The notes beneath the pieces were generated by a model. That model did not search any database and was not told the origin of the DNA. It was given only the letters and a program-made list of their open reading frames with translations. A stretch of DNA of 42,377 nt from Candidatus Treponema caballi. GTDB lineage: Bacteria; Spirochaetota; Spirochaetia; Treponematales; Treponemataceae. Of this stretch, positions 3,805 to 20,474 are shown piece by piece. Where the stretch lies: assembly GCA_018066285.1 (NCBI GenBank), contig JAGHRS010000025.1, positions 1 through 42,377 on the forward strand. Direction: 5' to 3'. Position 1 is the first letter of the stretch, and the number at the start of each line of letters is the position of its first letter. The position numbers and the translations under genes are program-made.

Positions 3805-4119
3805 TTATACGATCAATCCGGCAAGCTCGATAAGCGCGTCTGCCTGCTCGTCAAGCTGCGTCTGCTGTTCCGCTACCTGCTGCTGGAGCCTTTCAAGGTC
3901 GGAGGGGACGGGAGGAACGGGCTCCGGAATATCCTCTTCAATCTCCTGTCTGCTGCGGGAAACAACGTGCCCGTTCTGATACTTATAGATCGGAACGCCG
4001 TGTTCCTCGGTGATCGGCTCCCCGATGGTTTCAGGGACTTCTTCCCAGCCGGAATTGCCGGACATATCATTGGGGTTAAATGCAGTGATTCTCTTTTCAC
4101 CGTCTACATAAACAAACAT
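3805..4119 (-). CDS. Hypothetical late protein with coiled-coil C-terminus
   Basis: A 104-residue protein. The N-terminal half looks like a small beta domain (MFVYVDGEKRITAFNP, VPIYKYQNGHVV), followed by a proline-rich turn (PEPVPPVPSD) and a glutamine-rich coiled coil (LERLQQQVAEQQTQLDEQAD). Proteins of this build are common next to CD1375-like genes in clostridial phages and may be tail- or fibre-associated, but I know no proven role. The start overlaps the stop of the reverse transcriptase as TAATG, with AAAGGAG upstream, so it is translationally coupled to the DGR. Confidence 0.6.
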   Translation of the reverse strand: MFVYVDGEKRITAFNPNDMSGNSGWEEVPETIGEPITEEHGVPIYKYQNGHVVSRSRQEIEEDIPEPVPPVPSDLERLQQQVAEQQTQLDEQADALIELAGLIV

Positions 4120-5270
4120 TAAAAATACTCCTTTCGGTTAATCAGTGTGCTGTAACCGAACAGCTCATGAAAAAGCTTGTCCATGCTACGCACGGTTTTA
4201 TGACTGTTGTAGTCTTTCAGTATGTAACCGCGATATGAATTGTGTGCGCATGTAATCTGATCTTGACCGATAACCCCGGCGTCTTTGAATTTCTTCATCT
4301 TCTTCAGCTTTCTCCGGTGCTTTGCTGTGTTCGTCTTGCACGGCTTTACTATTACTTTCCCGGTACCGGTGAGATAGTAAACACCTTTCATGTAGGGGAA
4401 GCCTCTTGAAAGCTTCACAATCTGCGTTTTCTTCCGGTTCAGCTTTATGCCTTTCGCCTTGCACAGCCCGTCGATTTTATCAAGGCAGTGCCACAGATAA
4501 TCTTTGTTGTTGTGGATGAGATAACAATCATCCATGTAACAGCCGTATTCCTTCACGCGCAGTACCTCTTTTATGTAGTGGTCAATGCTGCTGCGATAGG
4601 AGACAGCAAGAATCTGTGATACTTGGCTGCCGATGCCTAAAGACTTTTCGCCGAAAGGCTCAATGAATTGCCGGCATAAATCGAAGATCCTTTTATCTTC
4701 AAAAGCCGCGTCCAGCATTTCATAAACCGGCTCATGCAGAATGTTATCAAAGTATCCGCTGAAATCCATAAGCAGGATATATCCTTCGTTGCCGCCGGTT
4801 CTCCGGTAGTATTGGTGCAGGTGATGTTTCAGCCGGGAACGTGCGAAAGATATTCCTTTTCCTTCCAGTGAAGCGCCATTGTCATAGATCAGGCTCCTGC
4901 TGAGTACAGGAACAAGCGCATTGTCACACAGAGACCGCTGCGCGACACGTTCTTTGAAGTGCACAGACTTGATATGCCGCTTCTTCCCACGTTCAAACAG
5001 GTCAAATTCTATAAAGCCCATTGTTACATCTTCTTCCGCGAGAAGTTTTTCACGCAGAATAATGATGTTCCGTAGCCAGCTCATAAAATATCGCTGTACT
5101 GACGCCTTCCAGCGTATAGAATTGCCGGAAAGACGCGCCGCTTTGAACAGGGCGTTGCAGGTGCACATTCTTTCGTAGTTATCATACTCCGCTATGGCGG
5201 CTCTCCGCTTTTCGTATCGCTTCTGTTTTCGCCGCAAATAGCGTGCTTGGTGTCTTTCTTCACTTGTCAT
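4119..5270 (-). CDS. Diversity-generating retroelement reverse transcriptase
   Basis: A 383-residue reverse transcriptase that copies the template-repeat RNA with adenine-specific errors. Visible motifs: MDFSGYFDN (motif A aspartates at about 169 and 175), GIGSQVSQIL at 212-221, in which the SQ replaces the usual SP and marks DGR enzymes, and the catalytic YMDD at 245-248. The basic N-terminal helix (RHQARYLRRKQKRYEKRR) and the RWKASVQRY segment are typical of the group. The open frame extends to an ATG at 5336, but I prefer the ATG at 5270 from the usual N-terminus of related enzymes; neither has a convincing ribosome-binding site. The gene follows target, avd and TR in the standard DGR order, and its stop is fused to the start of the next late gene. 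No catalytic residue is missing. Confidence 0.93.
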   Translation of the reverse strand: MTSEERHQARYLRRKQKRYEKRRAAIAEYDNYERMCTCNALFKAARLSGNSIRWKASVQRYFMSWLRNIIILREKLLAEEDVTMGFIEFDLFERGKKRHIKSVHFKERVAQRSLCDNALVPVLSRSLIYDNGASLEGKGISFARSRLKHHLHQYYRRTGGNEGYILLMDFSGYFDNILHEPVYEMLDAAFEDKRIFDLCRQFIEPFGEKSLGIGSQVSQILAVSYRSSIDHYIKEVLRVKEYGCYMDDCYLIHNNKDYLWHCLDKIDGLCKAKGIKLNRKKTQIVKLSRGFPYMKGVYYLTGTGKVIVKPCKTNTAKHRRKLKKMKKFKDAGVIGQDQITCAHNSYRGYILKDYNSHKTVRSMDKLFHELFGYSTLINRKEYF

Positions 5271-5655
5271 AATAATTTGGTACGGCGTACAGGCCTTATT
5301 ATAGAGCGCCGTTCTACCTGCGTAGCATTGGGGCATGAAAGTGAGCTGTGCGCATACTCACCCATGCAAGCAGCGTCCGCCCCTTGCATCGCCGTACATA
5401 TTTACCCTTCTTCAATAAAAAGATTCGGGGAAGGTTACCGGCTCCTTCCTAAATAAAGGCACTGAGTTCAGCCCTTTCGGGTTTACTGTGACTGGCCCTT
5501 TGATTCGGAATCAGAGCGGCACGCGGATGTTGGTGTTGGCCGCGTTGTTGTTGTTGGCATTCCCGTTGTTGTTGACATTCGCAAAGTTCGTGGCCGAGTT
5601 GGCGGTCTCCAACCACCAGTTGCTACGGTGATTTACAGCCGGTAACCTGCTGTGA
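5271..5655 (-). ncRNA. DGR template RNA region, from avd stop to RT start
   Basis: The interval between the avd stop and the preferred RT start holds the template repeat plus about 240 bases of downstream spacer without a convincing gene. In the characterised Bordetella DGR, an RNA made of TR and the following spacer is the functional template and is structured for RT-Avd binding; I infer the same here. An ORF on the opposite strand (5247-5456) looks like a shadow. Boundaries are set by the neighbouring genes, not by visible RNA ends. Confidence 0.5.
5507..5628 (-). repeat. DGR template repeat (TR)
   Basis: A 122-bp repeat matching 6129-6250 without gaps. On the coding strand, all 18 differences from that copy are at A in this copy, and all 87 non-A positions are identical. 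If translated in the frame of the target gene, it would encode 14 asparagines, all in AAC or AAT codons. This is the usual DGR design for amino-acid diversity without stop codons. It lies 27 bp downstream of avd and upstream of the RT gene. Confidence 0.95.
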
Positions 5656-6069
5656 TTATTTTGGTTTTTGTATCTTTGCGTTTTTCTTAAGGCTGCGCAG
5701 TAATTTCAGCTCCTGTATAAGCAGGGTTCCGAACTGCTCCACTCTGTCAGGAGTAACGCTTTCAATCACCCATACACAATCCTGCATCTGAGTAAACAGC
5801 GTTTCACCGGCTTCTATTGCCCGCTGCAAATATTCTTTTCTGACTTTGAGACTGTAATCATCGACCGGGAAGAGGGTTTCCGCTTTGGTAAGATTATTTC
5901 TCATTTCATGCCAGCTGTTTATCATCGGAACAACGTCGGTATAAAGTGTCCTCTTTGGAAAGATATTCGGGTTTCCGGTCAGCCGCCGGAGCTCTACATA
6001 TATCGCCGTCGCAATATCGTAGTATTCCTTCCCGGTGGCGTTTCGGTTTCTTGTGTAGACGTTACTCAT
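5656..6069 (-). CDS. avd: DGR accessory variability determinant (Avd-like four-helix bundle)
   Basis: A 137-residue, mostly helical, basic protein (YYDIATAIYVELRRLTG, VVPMINSWHEMRNNLTKAE, KEYLQRAIEAGETLF, LLIQELKLLRSLKKN). Size, four-helix pattern and position between the variable-repeat gene and the template repeat fit Avd. In known systems Avd forms a barrel-shaped pentamer that binds RT and template RNA and is needed for mutagenic cDNA synthesis. AAAGGA lies 7 bases before the ATG. The assignment rests strongly on context, since Avd proteins are variable in sequence. Confidence 0.88.
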   Translation of the reverse strand: MSNVYTRNRNATGKEYYDIATAIYVELRRLTGNPNIFPKRTLYTDVVPMINSWHEMRNNLTKAETLFPVDDYSLKVRKEYLQRAIEAGETLFTQMQDCVWVIESVTPDRVEQFGTLLIQELKLLRSLKKNAKIQKPK

Positions 6070-6087
6070 GGCAATTCCTTTCAGGAT

Positions 6088-6108
6088 AGCGCCCCATAGA
6101 GGGGCGCT
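6088..6108. promoter_or_regulatory. Perfect hairpin/cruciform between VR and avd, candidate DGR homing element
   Basis: A perfect 8-bp inverted repeat (AGCGCCCC with GGGGCGCT) around a 5-base loop. It starts 9 bp after the target stop codon and 20 bp beyond the end of the VR. There is no T-run on either side, so it does not look like a terminator. In the Bordetella phage DGR, an 8-bp-stem hairpin just downstream of the VR raises retrohoming efficiency; this is the equivalent position. Confidence 0.65.
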
Positions 6109-6117
6109 GTATAGGTG

Positions 6118-7161
6118 TTAGGTGACGAGGAAGCAGAGCGGCACGCGGATGTAGGTGTAGGCCGCGGGGTAGGGGTAGGCAGCCCCGTAGTAGCTGACAT
6201 ACGCAAAGTACGTGGCCGAGTAGGCGGTCTCCAACCACCAGGTGCTACGGCCGCCGCCGTCGCCGGCGCCTTTGATAACATGGCGGGATGTTCCGTTGAA
6301 GATAGGCCACTTGTTATAGAGGTTCCCGGCGACGTAGCCGCTTGCGCTTCCCCATGCAGGAGAACCGTAAACTTCACGCTCTTCCGGAAGGAACAGTCTG
6401 CCTCTGTCCGTCCATGCCCAGTTTGAAGGGCTTCCTGCTCCTGCCGCCATTGTAGCCAGCATCGCGCGCATACCATTGTTGTTGGGTCCTTTGTAGACAT
6501 AGGAGCCGAGAGCGGAGCCCTCCACAAGCTTGATGATGCCGTCCTCTGCGTTGTTGAGGGTTTCCCACAATGCGGAGCCGCGCCACGGGTTGACCTGCGC
6601 TGTGTCGAACCACACACTATTGTTGCATCTGTACTGAAGCGTAGGAGGCATACAGTCACGGGAACACATAAGAACGTGCTGCGCCGTAAGCTCTGTGTCA
6701 CCGTGCCTGAGATACGGATTGATTGCCGCAATTTCCATCTTCATGGTGGCGTTCATGGTTTTCACAAAGCCCGCCGTGCAGTCTGTAATTGCAGCATATA
6801 CATCAGCACCGGAAACCTTAAACTTGATTGCCGTAGCGCTCTGATATTCGCCTTCTGCGTCGGCTTCCGTGGTTCCTACTTCTGTCGTGAGATCTGCGTC
6901 GCTGTAGTATGTCGTCCCGGAAGGTACGGTGAAGCGTGCATAGTCTTTGTAGCTTCCGTTCAGGGTGATCGGGAAGTAATCTCCGATACGGATCTTTGAA
7001 AAGTCTCCTGCTGCAATGGCAGAGTGAAACTGTTCTGCTGTAAATTCCTCGCTCAGATCGTTGCCGCCGTAACCTTCGATAGCCGGGGTTCCGTTTGCTG
7101 CCCGGAGATCGTATGTGGTTCCGTCAACTTCCATCTGGTCAAGGTAAGGTCTGTTTGCCAT
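6118..7161 (-). CDS. DGR target protein, C-type-lectin-like receptor-binding protein
   Basis: A 347-residue late protein whose C-terminus is encoded by the VR. The C-terminal half (about 180-347) has the pattern of the C-type-lectin/formylglycine-like fold seen in Firmicute DGR targets (DUF6273-like: RLFLPEEREVYG, WPIFNG, STWWLETA and a final IRVPL). The diversified surface residues lie between WWLETA and IRVPL and are now mostly tyrosines, as in binding sites selected for contact. The N-terminal part (MANRPYLDQMEVDGTTYDL) resembles modules that attach such domains to the virion. A strong AAGGAG lies just before the ATG. It sits between the BppU-N-like gene and avd. I infer that it is an adhesin at the tail tip or on fibres that tracks changing host receptors. 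Confidence 0.9.
   Translation of the reverse strand: MANRPYLDQMEVDGTTYDLRAANGTPAIEGYGGNDLSEEFTAEQFHSAIAAGDFSKIRIGDYFPITLNGSYKDYARFTVPSGTTYYSDADLTTEVGTTEADAEGEYQSATAIKFKVSGADVYAAITDCTAGFVKTMNATMKMEIAAINPYLRHGDTELTAQHVLMCSRDCMPPTLQYRCNNSVWFDTAQVNPWRGSALWETLNNAEDGIIKLVEGSALGSYVYKGPNNNGMRAMLATMAAGAGSPSNWAWTDRGRLFLPEEREVYGSPAWGSASGYVAGNLYNKWPIFNGTSRHVIKGAGDGGGRSTWWLETAYSATYFAYVSYYGAAYPYPAAYTYIRVPLCFLVT
6129..6250 (-). repeat. DGR variable repeat (VR)
   Basis: This is the mutated copy of the template repeat, at the 3' end of the target gene. Nine of the 14 TR asparagine codons have become tyrosine, and the others Thr, Ser, Ala, Pro and Pro. The segment nearest the gene end (6134-6152) is unchanged apart from one A-site difference at its border and is the probable initiation-of-mutagenic-homing part. 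Confidence 0.95.
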
Positions 7162-7550: not shown

Positions 7551-10500
7551 TTATCCGTTCATCCACTTCGCAAAGGTCTTGCTCTTTGCTTTGTTCCACT
7601 GTGCCCGCCAGATAGCGTCGCACTGTTCAAAGGTGAGCTCCCCGCTCTGCATAGACGTCATGAGCGCTACGCCCATTTCATCTTGTTTAATGCTGTCGTT
7701 CCCGTCGGTATCTGCGTTATTCAGAATTTCAATGAACCTGTCAAGGCTCATGCCGGAAGGTTGCAGCTGTGTTTCCCAGATGCCGTACATGGTCTGCTTT
7801 GCCGGAGTATCGTAAACGGGAACCTTCTTGAAGTCGTCATAGCTCTTTGCGTTGGAAACGGGCGCTGCCGCCGGTGCTTTTGCCGCCGGTGTGAACTGTA
7901 CTTCGGTAAGCTTCTGCGATGATGCAGCGGTTTCTGACTTCTTCCCTCCGTTTCTCCATTCCTCAAAGGTCTTGTTGTTATCAGCGTGCCACTTGGAGCG
8001 CCAGACGGCATTTGCCTGTTCTTCTGTAATCCGTCCGTCTTCCAGCGCAGCAACAAGCGCAGCTCCAACTTCATCCTGCTTATATTTCCCGTTGCTGTCT
8101 CCGTGAACAGTGTCCGCATCGTCAAGAATCGCCTGATAATCTTTCTGCGACATTCCGGAAGGCTGAATGTATTCCGAATAGGCTTTATCAACAGCACGCT
8201 GATAAGAAACAAGCTTTTTGCTCGGGTCGAAATAACCTACTGTGTTGTTCCACACGTCTTGCACTTCTCTCCATGCCGTAGCAAACGGGATGCCGGAAAG
8301 ATTTGAAGTCGCCTTTATCAGATTGTAGATAATGGAGTACGGTGTGTAGTTGGATCCTTTTCCCTGCTTTTTCTGAGCGATTATGTCTATTGCTTTTGTC
8401 AGATACTTCGTATACATGGACATGCCTGAATCAACATCATTACCGTACATGTCAATGTTGAGCTTGTCGAAAACTCCGAATGAATCGAGGTATTTCTTCA
8501 TCAGCTCGTAAAGCTCAGACACAAGAGGAATCTTGCCAAATATCATTTCTTCCTCAACGACGTTGCCCTTAAAGGCTTTCAGATACTTTTGCAGATAGTT
8601 GTTCAGCCAGTTTTCGCTATCCTCGTCGTCCTGATCTCTCCATGCGTCAATGACTGCCTGCATACCGGAAAGAATAACCTGCCCGATTGCGTACACGGCA
8701 ATGGTCTTTGCGATATTCCCGCCGTTGCGCTGCCATGCCTCGCTTCTGCTCATGCCCTGCTGTATATCGTCCGTGTACTTGAAGTGCGCGTCCGTGAGCA
8801 TGGACATTGTTGCGGAAGGTTCCGACATAAAAGAGCCCATCTGCCGGGCAATGCCGCCTTTGGAACGGAGGAATTGAGCTTTCGTCAGGAGGCTGTCAAC
8901 AACCTGCGTCTTGTAAATCACGTCTTCAAACAGATCTGTGACGGCCTTGAAGTATTCTTCTTCGGTCTTGTAATCGCTGCGGCGCACGGTGTCTTTCGCT
9001 GCGTACCACATAGCAGCCCATGTATACCGGTCGGCCAGCTCTGCGCCTTTGGTTCCCACTTCCATAACTCTGTCCATAACACCGGGGTTCTGCTTGATAA
9101 GGTCAGTGAGCCCGCGTGAAATGTTGGTGTCATAGAATCCGAGCGCCTTCCATGCAGCAATGCCGCTGTGCGCTTCCATTTCTTCAGCAAGCTTATTCAT
9201 TTGCAAGGTGCTCATGCTGAGCCCCTTTGTCAGCTTTGCCGGGGAAAGAATCATTGCCGCCCTCGTGATCGCCGTCGGCTGCTGGATGATAACGCGCAGG
9301 TTGTACGCAATGGCAGCGCCGTTGAAGTGATGCAGCATTTTGAGCGGGAGGGAATCATACGGGTCGCCCTGTGCGGAAGTGCCGTTGTAGGCTTTCAGAA
9401 GGTTGATAACGAACTGTTCTGCATATCCCTTTGCTCCGCTGCCGGCGCGTTCGTCAAGCGGTGCACCGAAAGCAGAGGAAAGCTTTGTGCGCACGCTGGT
9501 GTCGTCGTTCTTGTAGTTGAACCATTTCAGCGCGTCCAGCATCGGCAGGGCAAACGCCCTGTACTGCGTCATGCTTGCGGTGTGGTTGGCGAATACATCA
9601 AAGATGTTGTAAAGGATAATGCGGTTGCTGGCGTTCTCTTTCAGCTCCTTCGTGAAGCTGCTGTTCAGAAGGGCGTATAGGCCTGCATTGTCCGGGCTCT
9701 CGTCTGCCGTTGTGGAAAGATACCTGCCGTCGCTGTTGATCGGGAAATAATTTTCCTCCGTGAACTGCTCCACGTCGAAACGTGCCATAGAAACGTAGTT
9801 GCCCCATGCAGCAGTTTCCGTGCTCATGTACTTCTGAAGAGCGTCGGCAACTTCCATCTGCCGGGGTGTAAGCTCCTGAATCATCTTCTGAACGTCTTTC
9901 AGCGTTACAAGGTGCCCTTCGTCAAGCTCTACGTTCTTCCCGTTCTTGTAGTTCGCTACGCGGATCCCGTCGCCGTAAATGTGTGTGAGCGCCTGCGGGC
10001 GTTTATTCAGGCAATAAAGGCTCATAAGGTGCGTGATCGGGACCGTGACAGTCTCGCCGTCTGAAAGCTCAAAGGTCTTTGTCTGTTCGCCCCACGCCTT
10101 TACTTCTTTGCCGGTGTAGGTCTTCTTTGCAAAATCAATAATCTTGTTCGCAAGGAAAGCCTGTGTTGCCTGTCCTTCCCGGAATTCATGTTCAATGCTC
10201 TGCCCGCCTTTTCCGAAGTGCTCAAAGGCGTAGGACGGACGCATGTAATCAAAACGCATGAATTTGTATGCAAGCCCGCTCTTTTTGGATTTGCTGAACT
10301 TGCTAAGATGTTCAACCGTTTCTTCTCCGGCTTCATAGGTGTGCTGGAACATGGCGTTGTTGTGGAACATGTTCATGGTGGTAATGTACTTTTTCAGCGT
10401 CTTCAACGTCTGGGAAAGCTGTTTCAGATCTGCCGCGCTCATTTCATTTACAACGAACTGACCGGAATTGTTCTTAATATGCTCTTCCGTCTTGCTGATA

Positions 10501-13500
10501 AGCGCATTGAAGTTTTCTATGAAGTCTTCCGGCAGGTCGGCATATCCGGAGTAAAGCCCCTGAGAATCTACGTTTGCTTTGATCGCGTCGCGCATCTTCT
10601 TCATGTTCTTCAGGTACTTTTCGTCGGCCTTCGTGGTATCAAGGCCGCTTGTCCGGAGCGCCGTTTTGCTCATAAGGTTGATGCTTTCAAGGAAGTTCGC
10701 AACGGTTTTCTGAATCTCTGCCGGGACGTGTGCCCGCATATCCTTGTTGCTGGGGTTGACAAGCCACTTCCGGAGGGTTTCTACTTCCATGCGCACGCGG
10801 TCTCTGTATTTCCGGGTAGCCGCGCTCTCATTGCGGCGCTCCCGGTACCGCTTCAAATTCTCGTCGCCGCGCTTCTTTTCTTCCTGCTCCACGACACGGC
10901 GGGCTTTTTGCAGCACAGTTTTCAACACGTCTTTGTTTTCAAGACTAAGGAGACTGTTTTCAAGGCTCTTAATCTTAGAATCTAAGACAGACATTGCAGC
11001 ACGAATCCGGTCGGCTTCCTGACGGGAGCCCCCCTTTGTAAACTGCTGGTCTTTATACTGCCTGCCGAGCTCTGCGCGCTGCTCCTGCGCTTCCTGCAAC
11101 CGTGTAAGGCGTTCATTGAATATCGAAAGGGCGTTCCGCTCTACGTCGGAGAGGCTTTCCACGTCAATATCGTTCGCCGCCATGCTGAGAACTTCCCGGT
11201 CTGAAAGTCCGCTGTTCCGTCTGGTGGAATACTCTATTTCTTCCTCTTCGGTAATACGCCAAAAAGCGGAAGGAAGGTTTTCCTTCGGGTTCGTTGCGAT
11301 AATAACAGCGCCTTTTCGCTCCACGTTATCAAAGAACTCTTCGATTTCATGGACGTAATCTGCTGTAGCCCTGCTGTTCTGCCACTGGTCAGCGCCGGTC
11401 TGCACGCCGGTACCGCTCTTGTCTTTCTCATAAACAGAGAAATATGCGGTGCCGTCCTCTTTAATAGACTTCGCAACTTCAAGAATGACGTTGCGCCGGG
11501 ATTCCTGCTCTTTGATAACGTTCAGGACGTTTGCACAAGTAGCTGTGTCAGCGCGGTTTCCCGTCCTTAGATAATCCAGTGTTGCAAGGTTTTCGTCAAT
11601 TCCTCTGTTGTACGGGTCGTAAACCATGTTCGTGGTTCCGTATTCTTCGGCAAGGTATTCTGTCGTTGCGTTGAAAGCACCGCCGCCGATGTCTATATTA
11701 ACATCTTCCGGCTGGAAATGCTTGCTTTTGAACAGTGCGGCAACCTGATTCAGAGAAGTCTTTGCGCTGGAGAATTCCTGACGGACGCGGAGGGAATATT
11801 CAACATTGTCTTCGTCTTCTCCGCTGTCAATGGCCTGCTCTTCCTTCGGGTTGAGCTCTTCCATGACTTCATTGTAGCGCTTCCGCTTCTGGTCAAGCTC
11901 TTCCTGACGCGGGAAAGGAGCCTGCATTAAGGTCTCCTGCGCCTTGATCTCCTGCTCTTTCTGCTTTGCAGTCTCTTCATAGGCCTGCGCGTATGTTTCC
12001 AGCCCGTTCAATACCTTCTGCATGTTGGTAATCATCAGAGTAGTATTGTCCGGGTAGGTATTGAATTTGTACGCGCCGTCGGCTTTCAGCAGGCCGATAA
12101 CGCCTTCCTTTGCCTGCACAACGGAAATATCGAACCCGGCGAATGTTCCGATCTTCGTGTAGGTTTCCTCGGTGGCCTTTGCTGCTGCGTGAGCCATAAG
12201 GACCTTTCCTGCTTCTTTCTTGTCCTTATATGCCTTGTTGCCTACGGTAATGCTGAACTTGTCGTCTGTGCTCTCTTCCGTGCGGTTTTTGACGTCCTTC
12301 CGGGCATTGGCAGCGCGTCTTTCTGCTTCTGCCTTTTCCCGTTTGGCTTCCTGAAGCTTTCTCCCAGCCTCGACAACACTCTGCCGGTGTGCCATATAAA
12401 GGTTTTGCAGCTTCTTAATGTCTGTTTCAAGCTGAACCTGTTCAAGAATGAGCGGGCTTCCAGAGGCAAGGGCTTTCACTTCTGCCGCCGATAACGTGAC
12501 TTCGCCTGTGTCTTCTACGTCTCTGCCGACGTTCTCGCCGTTCATTATCTGGTCAATGAAGCTGCTCTTCCGGTCAATAATATCCCAGAGGCGAGCATCA
12601 AAGCTGCCGGTCGTGACATAGACATATTTGCTTACTTCCTCGTTGATATTGCCCTGACGGAATACACGTCCGTCGCGCTGCTCAACGTCGCCCGGTCTCC
12701 ACGGCGCATCAAGATGATGAATTGCAACGGCGCGCTTCTGTGCGTTCATGCCGACGCCCATTTTGCCGGTGCTTCCGATCAGCACGCGGACGCTGCCTGC
12801 GTTAACATCGTCAAAAAGCTTGCTCTTTTTCGCGTCGGTGTCTGCATCGTGGATAAAAGCGATTTCCTTTGCCGGAATGCCAAGCTTCACAAGGCGGCGT
12901 TTCAGGTCGTCGTAGAGCTTCGTGCTCTCCGCGTCCATGCCGGCATCTTCTTCAGCTCCCGCCTTTTCAACGTTGCTCTTTCCTTTCGGAGTGGCCATAT
13001 CGCAAAAGACAATCTGCGTTCCCTTCACGTCCTTGCTTGCCTTGTATTCCTCTGCGATATTCTCAGCGCATTTATACAGCTTGCATCCTTCCTCGTATGG
13101 AAGAGACGGGTCAATCATGCGCTGGGTGTAGGAAATCTTTCTGCCGTCGGAAGTGATCTTTAACATGTTGTCCTCGCTGGGGTCAACATTCTTGATATTG
13201 TCCGCTCTCTCTTCCAGTTGCTTCATGTATTCCTGCTGGAACTCTCCGGCCTCGCATTCAACAACCTTTACAGCGCCGCCCTTCATCTTCGGAATTTTCA
13301 GGCCGGGTACCTGCGTCAGAACGTCAGAGAAGTTCCGGAACAAAAGCTGCAATTCGCTCATGTTCTTGAACCGTGAAAAGCTCTGCTTTACGCGGTATCC
13401 CTGTCCGGAAGGTTTGATCTCCACGCCGTTAACCACTTCGCCGAACTGTTTTGCCCATGCGTCGAATGTGGAAAGACCGAGCTGGTCAAGAAGGTCTGGC

Positions 13501-16500
13501 TGCAAATACTTCTGCATGATATACATTTCACTCATGCTGTTCATGACCGGCGTTGCGGTGGCGAATACCACGCCGCGCCCGCCGTTGAGCTGTTGCAGGT
13601 AGCGAACCTTCGTGTAGAGGTCAAACGCTCTCTTGCTGCCGTCCTTGTTTCCGAGACCGGCGACGTTATTCATGCTGGTTGTATAGAACAGGTTCTTGAA
13701 ATTGTGCGCCTCATCAACAAATATACTGTCAATGCCGAGCTGCTCAAATTCGATACTGTCAGTGTCCTTTGCCTTATCGGAAAGCTTCTGAATCTTCGCT
13801 TCAAGCTGTTTGCGCTTCTTTTCCATGTCCTTTACGGACATAGATTTTGCGCCGGATTCTTCCTTTGCTTCCTTTATGGCCTGAATGATCTCTTCAACCT
13901 GTTCCTGATAAAGAGACAAGGCAAACTGATCTGAAATAGGAATCTTTTCAAACTGTTCATAGGAAACAATGATTGCATCATAGTTTCCGGTAGAAATACG
14001 GTTTGCAAAAGTCTTTCTGTTGTTCGGTGTGAAATCGCTCTGCTCTGCGACAAGCAGCTTTGCGGCAGGGAAGTAGGAAGAAAACTCTTTTCCCCACTGT
14101 GCAACAAGCGATTTCGGAACGGCAAACATGGGCTTCTGAACAATGCCGAGTTCTTTCAGCTTCATTGCTGCCGCCGCCATTTCAAGCGTTTTTCCTGCGC
14201 CTACGCGGTGCGCAAGCAGCGTATTTCCTCCGGAAGAAACAATACGCTGTACGGCGTCTGCCTGATGTGGGCGCAGTCCCCAGCCTGCGCGGAGGCCGTT
14301 TACAGTGAGCGTGCCGCCGTCATACTTCGGCGTAACAAGATTGTTGAAAGTCTCGTTATAGAGATATTCAAGGTCTTTCGCCCGCTCCGCGTCTTCCCAC
14401 AACCATTCCTGAAACTTCTTTGTGATCTGTTCTATTTTTTCATTGGCTGCGTCGGTTGCCACACGGTCAACAATGGTGTGTCCTTCCGCGTCCTTATAGG
14501 TTACAGTCACGCTGCGGCTGTTCATCATAGCTTCCAGAAGGTTCAGGAAAGAACGCTTCGGAGTTCCCCATTCCTGTGTATTCTGGTAATTGCTTTTCAG
14601 CCGTTTATTGGTCAGGTCGATTGTGAAGTTGCCGGTCTGATTGCTGCGGTGGATTGCAATATCGGGACCGCCGTAATACCGGTGGTTGTTCCCGCCGAGA
14701 ATATATGCGGCAAAGTCTGAATAAACGCTTTCCGGAATCCACGGGGTACCGGGCTGAACAAATATCTGCTCATGCGGAATATCAGCCGGGACAATGGCTT
14801 TCAGCGCGTCAACGTTATGTTGAAAATCCTTGTCAATTCCAACAAGCCCCTGCGCGTCGCGGAGCTTCGCCCTGACGTTTCCGGAAAGGTAGGTTTCAGC
14901 AGGTTCAAGGCTGCCGTCCTTTGTTTTGAAGGCAAGTTCGCCTTCAATAAGTTCCTGTATTACGTCCGCTTCACTCTTCCCGGTAAGGCGGGAAATAAGA
15001 GGAACGTCCACGCCGCCGGTGGTGTTTCTCGATACCGCAAGTCCGTCTTTCACGGTTTCCGCGTGCGTGACAGTCTGGTTCGGCTTTATGGTGTCGGTGG
15101 TGAATATGTCGGCCTTTGTCGCCGTCTTCTTCTCCGCGTCCCAATTCTCCAATGCAAACAGGCTGAAACGGTCTGGGTCTCCCTGAAATGCTTTTTTGTT
15201 CGCCGGGCTGTTAAGATAGCCGTACTCCTTCACGAAAGAATCATACAGCTTATTCAGATTACGGCGAATGTCCTTTATGCTCTTCTCGTCCGTGCCCTGC
15301 TGCTGCGCGTTCATGAGCTGGCGGGCAATATCACGGATTCCGAGCATACCGGTGATTCTCTTTGCAGTCTTTTCGTCCGCTTCAACCTCTACCAGAATAC
15401 CGTTGTCATTCTGATAAATCTTTCCGTCCTTCTGCACATAGCCGCCCTGCTTCGTGCCTCTTTCTGCTTTCTGAGCATTGATGTTTGCTTTCTCGGTAGT
15501 AGGACGCGCCGGGTAATCCATTTTACCGGTGATGTTCTGGAAAGCTTTATCTATCTGCTCTTCAAGGCTTCCGCGATCTGTAAACGGGTTTACCGTGTAT
15601 TCGTCGCGGTAGTGCATACCTCGGCTGGTGGCTTGTTCTCCGAGTACCATATCCGGGTGAGCTTTGAAATACTCGTTCTGATAACCGAATTTATAATCGT
15701 ATTCAGTTTCAACAAAGGGAACACCGGAATACTCTGTCCCTGCAGCTCTCTTTTTCAGAATGAGAATATCCGTTACAACGCTGGTACCTGCATTCCCTGA
15801 AAAGGCTGTGTTCGGCAGCCGGATAGCGCCGAGAAGGTCAGCCTTCTTTGAAATGTAGCTGCGAACGGTCTTGTCGTTGGCGTTCATGGTGTAGCTTGAC
15901 GTGATGAACATCACGATACCGCCGGTACGAACCTTATCAAGAGACTTTGCAAAGAAATAGTTATGAATCGCAGAAGTGATCTTCTTCGGGTACGCCCTGT
16001 CTACAACAGGGTAATTGCCGAAAGGAACGTTGCCGATTGCTACGTCCATATATCCGTCCGGAAGGATCGTGTTTTCAAATCCTTCGATACGAACGTCATT
16101 CTGCGGGTAAAGGTGCTTTGCGATAAGCCCGGTGATGTTATCAAGCTCAACCATAGTCCAGCTCTTCACGCCGCCGGTCATGTTTGCAGGCATAGCGCCT
16201 ACAAAGTTTCCTACGCCGCTGGAAGGTTCCAGCATACGGCCGCCTTTGAATCCGAGCTTTTCAAGCCCGCGATACATGGCACGGATAACCGGAATACTGG
16301 TGTAGTGCGCATTCAGCGTGCTGCCCTTCGCCGCTTTGTATTCCTCGTCGGTAAGCAGCTCTTTCAGCTCCGCAAATTCTTTGCTCCACTCCGTCTTTCT
16401 CTCGTCAAAGGCTTCCGGAATGCCGCCCCAGCCTACATAGCGGGCAAGCGCGGCCTGCTCTTCTGCGGTCGCGGTTCGCCCTTCGGCTTCGAGCTGCTTT

Positions 16501-19500
16501 ACAATGCGGATAGCTTCAACGTTCGCCTTGTACCGTGCTTTGCTGCCGCTGGGAAGGTCAAGGCTTTCGCCGATCTGATAATTGTTCCCTCCGGCGCTTT
16601 CGGTTGACTTCTGCTCAACCTGCTGCACAGTTTCTTCGTGAAGCTCTTCCTTCTGCCGGGTCTGTTCTTCCGGCGTAAGGTCTATGACAATTTCTTTTAG
16701 TACGGGTTCACGTCCGGGTTGAACTCCGCTCTCGCTATTTCCTTCGCTCCGGCTTCGTCCATTCCGTTTTGCATCATCTCTATTACGAGATCGTCCAGCT
16801 CCTCGCCCTTCCTTTGAAGGTACGGAAGAAGGCTCCCGTCCTGCTGCATCTCGCTGTACTGCTCCTTCCGGTTGTTCAGAAGATACTCGTACAGCTCCGT
16901 CCCCATTACTGTCAGTGTCGCTCTCTGCTGAAACGGGAGCGGCTTCGGGTTCGGTAATCTCGGTGCTTTCATTGGATGTTACCTCCTCTAAAAGTCTGTT
17001 GTTCTCAGCGATTCCGACGAGATCGTCAACAGCTTCTTCCCTCGTCGCAAAATTGCTGTCAAAGATACGGTTGTGTGCATTTTCAACCGGGTACACTCCG
17101 TCTTGCCCGGAAACCTTTGTAATTCTTCCGTTGTAAACGGTGTCTCCGTTCCTGCCTGCGTATGCCGTGATAGCATACTCATAGCCGTTCATGGTTACTT
17201 TCCCGACAGCAGAAAGCATGTTAAACAGCTTTTCACCTTCCGGCGTGCGTGCCACGCTTGCAGGCGCTTCTTCTGCGGGCTTTTCTTCGTTTACCGGTAC
17301 ATCTGATACCTTCTCTTCTTCCTGCGCCTCTGCGGGCTTTTGAGCGGCTTTTGGAACCATGCTTTTCAGGTCGGGCCCTTCTTCTGCCTGACTGGTGAAG
17401 TCATTGGCGGGAAAGTAGTCTCTTCCAATGCGCCGCTTTTCCGGTTCTGCTTTGCGCGGAACCATGTCTTTCAGCACGGGCGCTGTCTCGTCCACGGTCT
17501 CATATTCGCCTGTGCGGAAGAAGTCCATACCTACGCGCTTGCGCACATTTCCGGTTTCCTGAGCATTTCCGGCAGCGTTTTGAGCATTTTCCACAACAGA
17601 ACGTACATTTTTCTGCTGTGCTGAGCGTTTCGGAAGATTGTCGGGCTTTGCAGGCTGGTCTATCAGAACTTCACCGTTTGCGCCCTGATAATTCGCAACA
17701 GCGCCCTTTGCAATTCTATCCCACATCTGGACAATGCCGTCCATGTAGGCGTTGTTTTCCTTTAACGCCTGCGCCTCTCTCGGTGCCTTGCTGCTGATCT
17801 CCCGGTAATACTGCTTCATGCGTGCCGTAAACTCGCGCAGTTTCTGAAGCAGGCGACGGAAAATGTTCTGATGTTCGCTGGCAAGCTGCTGAACAAGGTT
17901 GCTGTCCGGGAGAATGTCCATCATTGCATCTGCCACAACCTCGCGGGAAGCCTGTTCATAAGTCATGTTCCCGCTCGTATCTCGCGCCTGCATGGATTCA
18001 ATCAGGTCATGTACGTTCTCGCCCCTGCTTTCCAGCGTATCAAAAACAAACTGTCTGAATTCATTATACTCTGCCGCGTTCCATTTCTCAATGAAATGCG
18101 TGAACTCGTGAGCAAACGTGCGGAGCATGGTGTAATTGCCGAGACTGTTCACGTCCTTAATGCTGTTAAGGCCGCTGTTGATGTCAATGTATATGCTGTC
18201 GTCCTTCCACTGGAAACGCCCCTGCGCTTCCGGATAAAGCCCGGTCGTGCTGTCTGCCTGTGAATTGTAAAGGACGATGTTGACGCCTGTTGTCTCCGCG
18301 TACTTCGTCAAGAGCCTGTATGCGGTGTTCTGCCGGTCGTTGAAAGCGGTTCTCATGTCGGCAATGGTCACGCCCTCGCCGCGCACGGTACCCTTGACGC
18401 GCTGCAAATTCCCGCTCCGCTGCTTGGAAGCTGTTTTCAGATCGCGGTTGACCGCCTGCGCCTCTGCGTCCGTCTGGCCGAGCTGATATGCCGCTGTGCG
18501 CTGTGCATCGGTAAGAGTGGGTACGTTGGCTTCCGTGAGATATGAAGCGCTAACGCCGCTCTGCCCCATATCGTATGCAGCGCGGAACCCGGCGGCAAAT
18601 TCATTCACGTCAACATCTGCCGCCTGATCGAATATCTCAGTAATCTTTTCCGGTGTAGGATATGTGCGGCTGAATTCCTCTATGTTTTCAAAGTCCGGAA
18701 CATTGATACCTCGCCTTGATACTTCCGGAACGTCCGTTGATACGCTGTGTCCTGATTTCTGGGCTCCGATCTCCCACGCATGTTGAAACTGTTCGCGGGT
18801 GAGCGCGTCGCTCTGCGTCGAGTTTTCAACAGCCTGTTCATAAGTAAGCCCCATTTCGCCGAGCTGAAAAGCTTCCTGTATGCCGTGTGCATAAGTCTGC
18901 GGATCCGCGTCTCCGATGTTGAGCCCGTCCATAAGAATACGCTGCTGCGCTTCCGGTATTTCCATATTGGAAACTACCTGCTGAACATACTGCGTGCCGG
19001 TTTCAAGCTCCGTCGGAATGGTCTGCTGTGTCTGCCGGTTGCGTGCCTGCTCCTGAATGGCATTCACGCCGCCTCTGATAGCTTTATCAACGGCAACCTG
19101 CCCGCCGCCGAGACCGAGACCGACGACGGCGCCTCCGGTAAACTCTCCCGCTGCGGTGAACGGGTTGAAAATCGCCCTGTCGTCCGTCGGGTCGAGTGAG
19201 GCAACAGGAACATCCACGCCGCCGAAACTCTTCAATCCGCGCTCTAAAACGCCCTGAAGAACTTCTTCTTTGCCTTCACCGAGTACAGCATCTTTGAACC
19301 ATTCAACAACGGCTTTCTTTCCTTGCTGGTTCCGCATCTGTTCAAGACGCATAGGAAGGTTCTGAATACCGCCGAGCGCTTCATCTGCGCCGCCGATTTC
19401 AACCATTGCGTTAAAGAATCCGTTTACAAGGCCGTAGGTTGCTGCGTCCTCTTCGCTCATGCCGTCGGCAAGCGCGTCTTCGTAGCCGTCACCGGCAACC

Positions 19501-20474
19501 TGCAAATAGGAAGTCCAGAACTGCGGGTTTTTTACAAGCTTTGTGAGGCCTTCCTTTGCCATCATCCCGGCAGCTTCTAAGCCGCCTGCGCTTTGCAGCC
19601 CGGAGAAATACTGTAATCCCTGCGTGGTAACGGCTCCTGCCTGCGCCGCCTGAACCGGTGCAAGAAGAAACGCTTCAATAGCCATTGGGACAGCAGCCAC
19701 AAGGGAAGTGCCGAATGTGTCAACGATCTGCGCCGCCCGGCTGCTGTTGGCGTTGTCGCCGTATTTCTTCAAGGCATTGTCATAACCGGCCTGCGCGTCG
19801 TCTGCCGCCCATTGCAGCAGGTTCTTTGAATTTTCCCCGACGTAATCAAGATTGACGCCGGGAATCATGTTTAGCCCGTCAATAACTCCGTTGACGGTTT
19901 CAAGGCCGAGATTATGAACCTCTTCGGCAAAGCCGCCGAGAAGGAAGTTTATACTCTTCCATGCAGAGGCGTTCCACTGGTTAATGCCTTTTGCTGCGGA
20001 GCCTTTAAGCAGCTGCCACCAGTTTGTTTTCTCGCCGGTAACCTGCGTGCGGTCAACACCGAGTATGCGGTCAATAACCTGATCTGCAAAGCTCATGTCT
20101 TCCGGTTTGTAGACGCCGCCTGTTTTCTTCTCCGCTGCGCGCTGACGGAGGATTTCAGCGTTATTGCTGTAATCGTGCATGTAGACGTTGCCGTCTTCGC
20201 CTTTGATGTAGCCGCCGGGAATCGCGCCGAAACCGCCGTCAAAATCAAGCGCTTTCTGTGCGTAGTCCTGATTCAGCCCGCCCATGCCGTCACTGTCTAT
20301 AATTTCTTGCAGCAGGGAAGTTCTCTGCTGCCCCTGCTGCTGTGTCGGATGCTGTACCGGCGCTACGTCCGGTACAGTGTAGCTCTTCTTTGCAGTATCA
20401 ACGACCTGCTGATTAAAGCTTGCGCCGCTGTTCTGCTCTCTGATTTCTTCTAACAAGGATTTTCTCTGTGCCAT
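7551..20474 (-). CDS. Giant polyvalent protein: metalloprotease-like, methyltransferase, SNF2-type helicase, second methyltransferase-like and EF-hand-like domains
   Basis: A 4307-residue protein, 30% of the window. In order: an N-terminal helical region with hydrophobic Gly/Ala-rich stretches (about 260-300 and 455-475); a zinc-metalloprotease motif HEFTH at about 789; low-complexity linkers (about 1000-1300); an N6-adenine-methyltransferase-like domain with LEPSSGVGNF (about 1415) and NVPFG (about 1482); an SNF2/DEAD-like helicase with Walker A AHRVGAGKT (about 2094), DEAH (about 2255) and motif VI QRDGRVFRQG (about 2602); a second SAM-methyltransferase-like stretch DIGGGAFNATTEY (about 2929); a very long helical region (about 3050-4000); and two EF-hand-like repeats at the C-terminus. 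This build matches the polyvalent proteins of phages and conjugative elements, which are thought to enter the cell with the DNA. Its place after the internal virion gene suggests that it is packaged and ejected. AGGAGGT precedes the ATG. Individual domain activities are untested. Confidence 0.85.
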   Translation of the reverse strand: MAQRKSLLEEIREQNSGASFNQQVVDTAKKSYTVPDVAPVQHPTQQQGQQRTSLLQEIIDSDGMGGLNQDYAQKALDFDGGFGAIPGGYIKGEDGNVYMHDYSNNAEILRQRAAEKKTGGVYKPEDMSFADQVIDRILGVDRTQVTGEKTNWWQLLKGSAAKGINQWNASAWKSINFLLGGFAEEVHNLGLETVNGVIDGLNMIPGVNLDYVGENSKNLLQWAADDAQAGYDNALKKYGDNANSSRAAQIVDTFGTSLVAAVPMAIEAFLLAPVQAAQAGAVTTQGLQYFSGLQSAGGLEAAGMMAKEGLTKLVKNPQFWTSYLQVAGDGYEDALADGMSEEDAATYGLVNGFFNAMVEIGGADEALGGIQNLPMRLEQMRNQQGKKAVVEWFKDAVLGEGKEEVLQGVLERGLKSFGGVDVPVASLDPTDDRAIFNPFTAAGEFTGGAVVGLGLGGGQVAVDKAIRGGVNAIQEQARNRQTQQTIPTELETGTQYVQQVVSNMEIPEAQQRILMDGLNIGDADPQTYAHGIQEAFQLGEMGLTYEQAVENSTQSDALTREQFQHAWEIGAQKSGHSVSTDVPEVSRRGINVPDFENIEEFSRTYPTPEKITEIFDQAADVDVNEFAAGFRAAYDMGQSGVSASYLTEANVPTLTDAQRTAAYQLGQTDAEAQAVNRDLKTASKQRSGNLQRVKGTVRGEGVTIADMRTAFNDRQNTAYRLLTKYAETTGVNIVLYNSQADSTTGLYPEAQGRFQWKDDSIYIDINSGLNSIKDVNSLGNYTMLRTFAHEFTHFIEKWNAAEYNEFRQFVFDTLESRGENVHDLIESMQARDTSGNMTYEQASREVVADAMMDILPDSNLVQQLASEHQNIFRRLLQKLREFTARMKQYYREISSKAPREAQALKENNAYMDGIVQMWDRIAKGAVANYQGANGEVLIDQPAKPDNLPKRSAQQKNVRSVVENAQNAAGNAQETGNVRKRVGMDFFRTGEYETVDETAPVLKDMVPRKAEPEKRRIGRDYFPANDFTSQAEEGPDLKSMVPKAAQKPAEAQEEEKVSDVPVNEEKPAEEAPASVARTPEGEKLFNMLSAVGKVTMNGYEYAITAYAGRNGDTVYNGRITKVSGQDGVYPVENAHNRIFDSNFATREEAVDDLVGIAENNRLLEEVTSNESTEITEPEAAPVSAESDTDSNGDGAVRVSSEQPEGAVQRDAAGREPSSVPSKEGRGAGRSRNRDDAKRNGRSRSEGNSESGVQPGREPVLKEIVIDLTPEEQTRQKEELHEETVQQVEQKSTESAGGNNYQIGESLDLPSGSKARYKANVEAIRIVKQLEAEGRTATAEEQAALARYVGWGGIPEAFDERKTEWSKEFAELKELLTDEEYKAAKGSTLNAHYTSIPVIRAMYRGLEKLGFKGGRMLEPSSGVGNFVGAMPANMTGGVKSWTMVELDNITGLIAKHLYPQNDVRIEGFENTILPDGYMDVAIGNVPFGNYPVVDRAYPKKITSAIHNYFFAKSLDKVRTGGIVMFITSSYTMNANDKTVRSYISKKADLLGAIRLPNTAFSGNAGTSVVTDILILKKRAAGTEYSGVPFVETEYDYKFGYQNEYFKAHPDMVLGEQATSRGMHYRDEYTVNPFTDRGSLEEQIDKAFQNITGKMDYPARPTTEKANINAQKAERGTKQGGYVQKDGKIYQNDNGILVEVEADEKTAKRITGMLGIRDIARQLMNAQQQGTDEKSIKDIRRNLNKLYDSFVKEYGYLNSPANKKAFQGDPDRFSLFALENWDAEKKTATKADIFTTDTIKPNQTVTHAETVKDGLAVSRNTTGGVDVPLISRLTGKSEADVIQELIEGELAFKTKDGSLEPAETYLSGNVRAKLRDAQGLVGIDKDFQHNVDALKAIVPADIPHEQIFVQPGTPWIPESVYSDFAAYILGGNNHRYYGGPDIAIHRSNQTGNFTIDLTNKRLKSNYQNTQEWGTPKRSFLNLLEAMMNSRSVTVTYKDAEGHTIVDRVATDAANEKIEQITKKFQEWLWEDAERAKDLEYLYNETFNNLVTPKYDGGTLTVNGLRAGWGLRPHQADAVQRIVSSGGNTLLAHRVGAGKTLEMAAAAMKLKELGIVQKPMFAVPKSLVAQWGKEFSSYFPAAKLLVAEQSDFTPNNRKTFANRISTGNYDAIIVSYEQFEKIPISDQFALSLYQEQVEEIIQAIKEAKEESGAKSMSVKDMEKKRKQLEAKIQKLSDKAKDTDSIEFEQLGIDSIFVDEAHNFKNLFYTTSMNNVAGLGNKDGSKRAFDLYTKVRYLQQLNGGRGVVFATATPVMNSMSEMYIMQKYLQPDLLDQLGLSTFDAWAKQFGEVVNGVEIKPSGQGYRVKQSFSRFKNMSELQLLFRNFSDVLTQVPGLKIPKMKGGAVKVVECEAGEFQQEYMKQLEERADNIKNVDPSEDNMLKITSDGRKISYTQRMIDPSLPYEEGCKLYKCAENIAEEYKASKDVKGTQIVFCDMATPKGKSNVEKAGAEEDAGMDAESTKLYDDLKRRLVKLGIPAKEIAFIHDADTDAKKSKLFDDVNAGSVRVLIGSTGKMGVGMNAQKRAVAIHHLDAPWRPGDVEQRDGRVFRQGNINEEVSKYVYVTTGSFDARLWDIIDRKSSFIDQIMNGENVGRDVEDTGEVTLSAAEVKALASGSPLILEQVQLETDIKKLQNLYMAHRQSVVEAGRKLQEAKREKAEAERRAANARKDVKNRTEESTDDKFSITVGNKAYKDKKEAGKVLMAHAAAKATEETYTKIGTFAGFDISVVQAKEGVIGLLKADGAYKFNTYPDNTTLMITNMQKVLNGLETYAQAYEETAKQKEQEIKAQETLMQAPFPRQEELDQKRKRYNEVMEELNPKEEQAIDSGEDEDNVEYSLRVRQEFSSAKTSLNQVAALFKSKHFQPEDVNIDIGGGAFNATTEYLAEEYGTTNMVYDPYNRGIDENLATLDYLRTGNRADTATCANVLNVIKEQESRRNVILEVAKSIKEDGTAYFSVYEKDKSGTGVQTGADQWQNSRATADYVHEIEEFFDNVERKGAVIIATNPKENLPSAFWRITEEEEIEYSTRRNSGLSDREVLSMAANDIDVESLSDVERNALSIFNERLTRLQEAQEQRAELGRQYKDQQFTKGGSRQEADRIRAAMSVLDSKIKSLENSLLSLENKDVLKTVLQKARRVVEQEEKKRGDENLKRYRERRNESAATRKYRDRVRMEVETLRKWLVNPSNKDMRAHVPAEIQKTVANFLESINLMSKTALRTSGLDTTKADEKYLKNMKKMRDAIKANVDSQGLYSGYADLPEDFIENFNALISKTEEHIKNNSGQFVVNEMSAADLKQLSQTLKTLKKYITTMNMFHNNAMFQHTYEAGEETVEHLSKFSKSKKSGLAYKFMRFDYMRPSYAFEHFGKGGQSIEHEFREGQATQAFLANKIIDFAKKTYTGKEVKAWGEQTKTFELSDGETVTVPITHLMSLYCLNKRPQALTHIYGDGIRVANYKNGKNVELDEGHLVTLKDVQKMIQELTPRQMEVADALQKYMSTETAAWGNYVSMARFDVEQFTEENYFPINSDGRYLSTTADESPDNAGLYALLNSSFTKELKENASNRIILYNIFDVFANHTASMTQYRAFALPMLDALKWFNYKNDDTSVRTKLSSAFGAPLDERAGSGAKGYAEQFVINLLKAYNGTSAQGDPYDSLPLKMLHHFNGAAIAYNLRVIIQQPTAITRAAMILSPAKLTKGLSMSTLQMNKLAEEMEAHSGIAAWKALGFYDTNISRGLTDLIKQNPGVMDRVMEVGTKGAELADRYTWAAMWYAAKDTVRRSDYKTEEEYFKAVTDLFEDVIYKTQVVDSLLTKAQFLRSKGGIARQMGSFMSEPSATMSMLTDAHFKYTDDIQQGMSRSEAWQRNGGNIAKTIAVYAIGQVILSGMQAVIDAWRDQDDEDSENWLNNYLQKYLKAFKGNVVEEEMIFGKIPLVSELYELMKKYLDSFGVFDKLNIDMYGNDVDSGMSMYTKYLTKAIDIIAQKKQGKGSNYTPYSIIYNLIKATSNLSGIPFATAWREVQDVWNNTVGYFDPSKKLVSYQRAVDKAYSEYIQPSGMSQKDYQAILDDADTVHGDSNGKYKQDEVGAALVAALEDGRITEEQANAVWRSKWHADNNKTFEEWRNGGKKSETAASSQKLTEVQFTPAAKAPAAAPVSNAKSYDDFKKVPVYDTPAKQTMYGIWETQLQPSGMSLDRFIEILNNADTDGNDSIKQDEMGVALMTSMQSGELTFEQCDAIWRAQWNKAKSKTFAKWMNG
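16697..16972 (-). CDS. Embedded gene inside the giant gene, shifted one base from its frame
   Basis: A 91-residue open frame nested in the giant gene. It has its own very strong AGAGGAGGT site 8 bases before the ATG. The product has natural composition (GTELYEYLLNNRKEQYSEM, LPYLQRKGEELDDLVIEMM, MDEAGAKEIARAEF). Over the same bases the giant protein becomes Arg/Ser/Gly-rich and low-complexity, as expected if the constraint lies on the embedded frame. The helical pattern reminds me of TnpV-like small proteins found near large helicase-methyltransferase genes in conjugative transposons, but that resemblance is from memory. The first 20 or so residues (proline- and basic-rich) are less convincing than the rest; a second ATG encodes the MGTELYEYL start. 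Confidence 0.6.
   Translation of the reverse strand: MKAPRLPNPKPLPFQQRATLTVMGTELYEYLLNNRKEQYSEMQQDGSLLPYLQRKGEELDDLVIEMMQNGMDEAGAKEIARAEFNPDVNPY

Follow-up and report, generated by a model that had tools for sequence, protein, structure and literature searches.

The stretch of DNA that we analysed (hereafter, the window) is a whole contig of 42,377 bp (C56). Its minus strand carries a diversity-generating retroelement (DGR), made up of a target gene, an avd-like gene, a template repeat (TR), a structured spacer and a reverse transcriptase (RT) gene, together with a tail-type gene on the same strand (Table 1).

Table 1. Features of the DGR and its surroundings in the window
Feature	Position	Strand	Basis
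DGR reverse transcriptase, 383 aa, motifs GSQVSQ and YMDD	4119..5270	(-)	RVT_1, PDB, BLASTP
RT-2 RNA (Rfam RF03077), structured spacer between TR and RT	5260..5500	(-)	Covariance model, covariation
Template repeat (TR)	5507..5628	(-)	Direct-repeat search and alignment
IMH*-side fixed A, within an in-frame TGA absent from the VR	5511	(-)	Alignment, relatives
Avd-like accessory protein, 137 aa	5656..6069	(-)	Position and size; weak identity to an annotated Avd
Target-site hairpin/cruciform, 8-bp stem AGCGCCCC/GGGGCGCT, 5-nt loop TCTAT	6088..6108	(-)	Sequence, relatives
Target gene, 347 aa, C-terminal domain DUF6273-like, VR at its end	6118..7161	(-)	ORF and Pfam
Variable repeat (VR)	6129..6250	(-)	Direct-repeat search and alignment
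IMH-side fixed C in the VR (GCTT), opposite A in the TR (GATT)	6133	(-)	Alignment, relatives
Tail-type gene with BppU_N domain	7623-7183	(-)	Pfam

The TR and the VR came out of a repeat search as the top direct repeat of the region (122 nt, 85% identity). On the minus strand they align without gaps over their whole length and differ at 18 positions (nine A>T, seven A>C and two A>G from TR to VR), all of them among the 35 adenines of the TR and none among the other 87 positions; the probability that 18 of 18 differences fall by chance on A, which occupies 35 of 122 positions, is P ~3e-12. Search and alignment thereby reproduced exactly what an earlier note on this DNA had read from it, and realignment, checked for many non-adenine differences, gave 0/87. 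The note's reading of the AAY codons was recovered as well: all 14 are altered in the VR, nine to Tyr, two to Pro and one each to Thr, Ser and Ala. The VR lies in frame in the 3′ part of the target gene and ends 11 nt before the end of its ORF. Beyond the VR, no further copy of the TR was found in the 2.9-Mb assembly, which leaves one TR and one VR.

Scans of IMG/VR and GTDB yielded about ten loci with the same module (IMG/VR contigs L003–L008, L043, L044 and L050; MAG contigs RUG11160 (L009) and RGIG3788 (L010)), with RTs about 68–86% (for the most part 72–86%) identical to that of the window. These close loci share the four-part order target–Avd–TR–RT and the hairpin, and each holds one TR/VR pair with differences at A only. 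Their TRs are near-identical to that of the window in some cases, but they belong to distinct phages with VRs that differ at A-sites. Up to the boundary base discussed below, ten TR/VR pairs hold 146 mismatches at TR adenines and 2/827 at other positions. As a stand-in for population data, we compared L003 with L004: 5 of 212 positions differ in the target flank (2%) and 16 of the 34 A-columns in the VR (47%), against 0 of 87 other VR columns. Diversification thus appears to be recent in the window's lineage. The contig from which L004 stems (IMGVR_UViG_3300032007_000165) carries two versions of the target gene at its two ends, the L041 end and the L004 start, with 20/212 flank differences and three in the VR part, all at adenines of the TR; these may be either two co-assembled strains or two target copies.

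To the earlier note, the system looked intact and recently active. The ORFs and motifs do look intact and the lineage diversifies, so that the claim stands for the lineage but not for this particular genome. One assembled genome, in which a single VR state is seen, cannot show activity, and an intact-looking but inactive relic, its VR frozen after some past round of homing, would look similar in that respect. Such a relic is nevertheless very unlikely, given that all ORFs are open, YMDD is intact, the TR keeps all 14 AAY codons, close relatives differ almost only at A-sites, and the lack of non-adenine mismatches implies negligible drift after the most recent homing. A simple duplication shaped by biased mutation (an A-rich template and a C/T-rich copy), for which nothing speaks except the existence of two repeats, has practically no probability, as not one of the 87 non-A sites changed, a DGR RT adjoins the repeats, and the same A-restricted pattern in all relatives already refutes it.

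One of the differences has another origin. At their 3′ ends, the TR reads CTCTGATTCC and the VR CTCTGCTTCC, so that A5511 faces C6133. All ten close loci show this A/C difference, and so do, with the single exception of L073, the 27 DGRs with an RT-2 spacer (see below) that we checked, among them that of Roseburia phage Shimadzu. Because random mutagenesis of A would not always yield C, the pair is not a product of mutagenesis; it is the IMH*/IMH difference, which marks the border of the stretch that is transferred. Read in the frame of the target gene, A5511 creates a TGA (TGC in the VR), and copying it would cut off the target's last residues; with the pair as the IMH*/IMH boundary, the stop codon of the TR would never be copied. 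The hypermutated count is therefore 17/34 rather than 18/35, which corrects a reading of all 18 differences as hypermutation products. The fixed base is also a warning against counting A-to-C differences at VR 3′ ends as mutagenesis.

The change load had been described as high and as a sign of repeated homing or of selection for a tyrosine-rich site. In fact the load is ordinary: 50% of the adenines are hypermutated in the window, compared with 32–54% in the relatives and a misincorporation of about 31–51% per adenine by the BPP-1 enzyme, bRT (PMC12875486). One round of homing thus suffices, and we rejected repeated homing as an explanation. What remains unusual is the tyrosine content alone, with Tyr at 9 of 14 AAY codons in the window versus 25 of 121 in nine relatives (Fisher p = 0.001; a post hoc test and one of several possible comparisons). 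Across ten loci, first-position changes in AAY codons went to T 40 times, to G 22 times and to C 17 times, and second-position changes to C 29 times, to G 22 times and to T ten times. These preferences, for T at the first and C at the second position, match the bias towards Tyr and Ser that bRT is reported to show in the AAC context (PMC12875486). The Tyr excess of the window copy suggests that, beyond the RT's known AAC-to-Tyr preference, either selection or chance was at work; selection for Tyr may have acted on this copy.

The RT matches RVT_1 (E = 2.9e-14), finds BPP-1 bRT as its best PDB match (8ub7, E = 1.6e-13) and is 24% identical to BPP-1 brt by BLASTP. Its SQ motif, GIGSQVSQ, fits the DGR-type pattern [IV]GxxxSQ, and its YMDD fits YxDD; both motifs, and the order target–Avd–TR–RT, were as the earlier note had described them. 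Translation most likely starts at 5270 (MTSEER...) and not at 5336, where the longer ORF begins, because relatives have in-frame stops upstream; matches also begin at residue 1 when the protein is taken to start with MTSEER. One viral contig, L069, encodes two DGR-type RTs (3649-2543 and 6828-5659). The Avd-like protein is about 29% identical to a protein annotated as Avd in Roseburia phage Shimadzu. It has no Pfam match and no BLASTP match to BPP-1 Avd; the NCBIfam Avd model was matched by just one of 11 Avd-like members (E = 0.0097), and a profile search of the PDB with the Avd alignment gave chance matches only.

All 19 aligned target members match DUF6273 (PF19789; best E = 1.4e-13), the match of the window's own target being weak (E = 0.055). 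AlphaFold models of the target reached a pLDDT of 35 (full length, 6 rows) and 44 (C-terminal domain, 19 rows), too poor to search for the C-type lectin (or Ig) fold expected of a DGR target, and profile searches of the PDB with the target alignment again gave chance matches only. We take the target to be a tail-associated DUF6273-like protein; by analogy with BPP-1, its rewritten C-terminal end is probably the receptor-binding part.

The target-site hairpin begins 20 nt after the VR, and its stem is kept in all ten close loci. No T-run follows it, and on this ground we rejected an intrinsic terminator. In most RT-2 DGRs that we examined, a GC-rich stem carries a YYYRY loop (for example TTTAT, CTTGT, CCTGT or CTCGT), likewise with no T-run after it. 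In the phage set studied previously, the stem-loop after the VR has a GC-rich stem of 7–10 bp and a 4-nt GRNA loop; BPP-1 carries it after the IMH and requires a GC-rich stem of 8–10 bp with the GRNA loop (PMC3240598). The difference in loop between the lineages (YYYRY versus GRNA) was noticed post hoc. Two loci, L018 and L020, have spacers below the RT-2 cutoff and yet a CTTGT loop, and the YYYRY type may extend more widely than RT-2.

The spacer between TR and RT is a full-length member of the Rfam family RT-2 (model positions 1–222) and the sole Rfam match in a scan of the whole window (128.7 bits, E = 7.6e-30, gathering cutoff 40). It starts 7 nt after the TR and ends over the RT start codon, and RT-2 lies at the same place in the relatives. 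In the same scan the window had no match to Phage_DGR (RF03022), for which BPP-1 as the control scores 104.7 bits. Across 43 loci, 21 of 27 base pairs show two-sided changes, and 94.4% of the cells in the spacer alignment are paired, compared with 33–49% when the partners are slid, supporting a conserved fold. RT-2-bearing RTs cluster in a well-supported part of the RT tree, with three label changes versus 22 in shuffles. In Rfam, the name of RF03077 reflects nothing more than an association with reverse transcriptases, and the family has neither a clan nor an assigned function. The RT-n motifs reportedly stem from Weinberg et al. 2017. In the literature that we searched, which did not include the RT-n source paper or the text of the Rfam entry, RF03077 appeared only in a table of structure updates and RF03022 was unmentioned. 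The link between RT-2 and DGRs is made here, and we do not claim priority for it.

In a reverse test, we ran the RT-2 model, blind to DGRs, over genomes from the same family and order. A DGR-type RT lies directly downstream in 28 of the 29 matches whose surroundings were fetched, and an A-specific TR ends directly upstream in about 20 of them. Most matches without such a TR are cut by contig ends; one is a sub-threshold match without an RT, and in three (L115, L118 and L124) a TR-like sequence ends in the same CCCCGATTC, with no VR found in these incomplete assemblies. Conceivably, RT-2 is a separate regulatory or terminator-like RNA that stands before RT genes by chance, outside the DGR transcript, and the function and boundaries of the RNA are indeed predicted here from sequence. 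This is very unlikely, however, in light of the near-constant DGR-type RT behind the blind matches, the A-specific TR directly before some two-thirds of them, the truncated contigs or GATTC-ended TR-like sequences that account for most of the remainder, and the fact that the spacer of BPP-1, in the corresponding position, has an Rfam family of its own, Phage_DGR. Most parsimoniously, RT-2 is a DGR spacer RNA, the counterpart of Phage_DGR in BPP-1, where the spacer folds, recruits bRT–Avd and primes cDNA (PMC12875486).

Beyond this, we consider it more likely than not that RT-2 is the spacer RNA on which the RT docks in a large DGR lineage, represented here mainly by Bacillota phages and genomes, and that this lineage has a target-site code of its own. 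In place of the Phage_DGR RNA and the GRNA tetraloop of the BPP-1 type, it would use a fixed boundary, GATT in the TR and GCTT in the VR, and a GC-rich hairpin whose loop is a 5-nt YYYRY. Two DGR lineages would then differ in spacer RNA and hairpin loop, making target recognition testable by swapping parts. RT-2 could also serve DGR finders as a marker that is independent of the TR/VR pair, and it offers a deep covarying alignment for an RT-docking and priming spacer outside the BPP-1 type. Two further observations concern the RNA itself. L120 holds tandem RT-2 copies (272-509 and 653-895) before one RT, each after a partly degenerate TR-like sequence ending in CCCCCGATTC. A stretch that is strongly conserved in RT-2, CTTGCATGG (many members read CTTCTTGCATGG; window 5370-5362 (-), L140 2891-2883 (-)), also occurs across the TR/spacer junction of BPP-1, possibly as a shared core of the two spacer RNAs or by chance.

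The BPP-1 DGR (mtd–avd–TR–brt) has the same order of target, avd, TR, spacer and RT, adenine-only mutagenesis, a tail gene with the VR at its 3′ end, a homologous RT, a GC-rich stem-loop after the VR and, between TR and RT, a structured spacer that belongs to an Rfam family. Apart from the low RT identity, it differs from the window in its Avd, which is not detectably similar; its spacer, 144 nt of Phage_DGR compared with about 240 nt of RT-2; its hairpin loop, 4 nt (GRNA) compared with 5 nt (TCTAT; YYYRY in most relatives); and its target, Mtd as opposed to a DUF6273-like protein. Roseburia phage Shimadzu (LR596903.1) shares the order tail fibre–Avd–TR–RT-2–RT, and its RT is 48.7% identical to that of the window. 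Its RT-2 scores 144.9 bits and starts 5 nt after the TR, its repeats end in GATTCC (TR) and GCTTCC (VR), and its 8-bp hairpin has the loop CTCGT; the examined part of LR596903.1 carries no RT-2 annotation. Unlike the window, this phage has P2-type baseplate and tail genes and a different target protein.

With this anatomy, adenine specificity, divergence of relatives at A-sites only, a fixed IMH*/IMH base, a covarying spacer RNA and the hairpin, the locus is almost certainly a complete phage DGR. An avd–TR–spacer RNA would be transcribed, and its spacer would fold into the RT-2 structure and, as in BPP-1, dock the RT with Avd. cDNA synthesis, presumably primed from the spacer as in BPP-1, would run across the TR from IMH* with misincorporation at adenines. 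By the same analogy, the cDNA would integrate and replace the VR as far as the GCTT that forms the IMH boundary, and the hairpin downstream of the VR may aid this step. The outcome would be 14 rewritten codons at the C-terminal end of the tail-associated DUF6273-like protein, and binding of a receptor by this part is again proposed from BPP-1. The DGR itself is an ordinary, well-known system, from one more gut or rumen phage in a well-surveyed class; what it adds is that RT-2 RNA can be assigned to DGR spacers and that the boundary base is fixed.

The window also encodes an integrase. It has no exact terminal repeat of at least 12 nt, and a nucleotide search of phages gave no match. Because sequences matching its end and its start adjoin in a related 42.9-kb contig, the window is probably a near-complete, circularly permuted phage genome. 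Two of the close relatives come from contigs that were binned as Ruminococcaceae/Oscillospiraceae (187 kb in one case), so that the phage may be a temperate one of Oscillospiraceae; its hosts are to be sought among gut or rumen bacteria. Among the virion genes, an ORF of 4307 aa (window 7551-20474 (-)) takes up 30% of the phage genome and encodes a giant protein with SNF2-type helicase and methylase-like segments.
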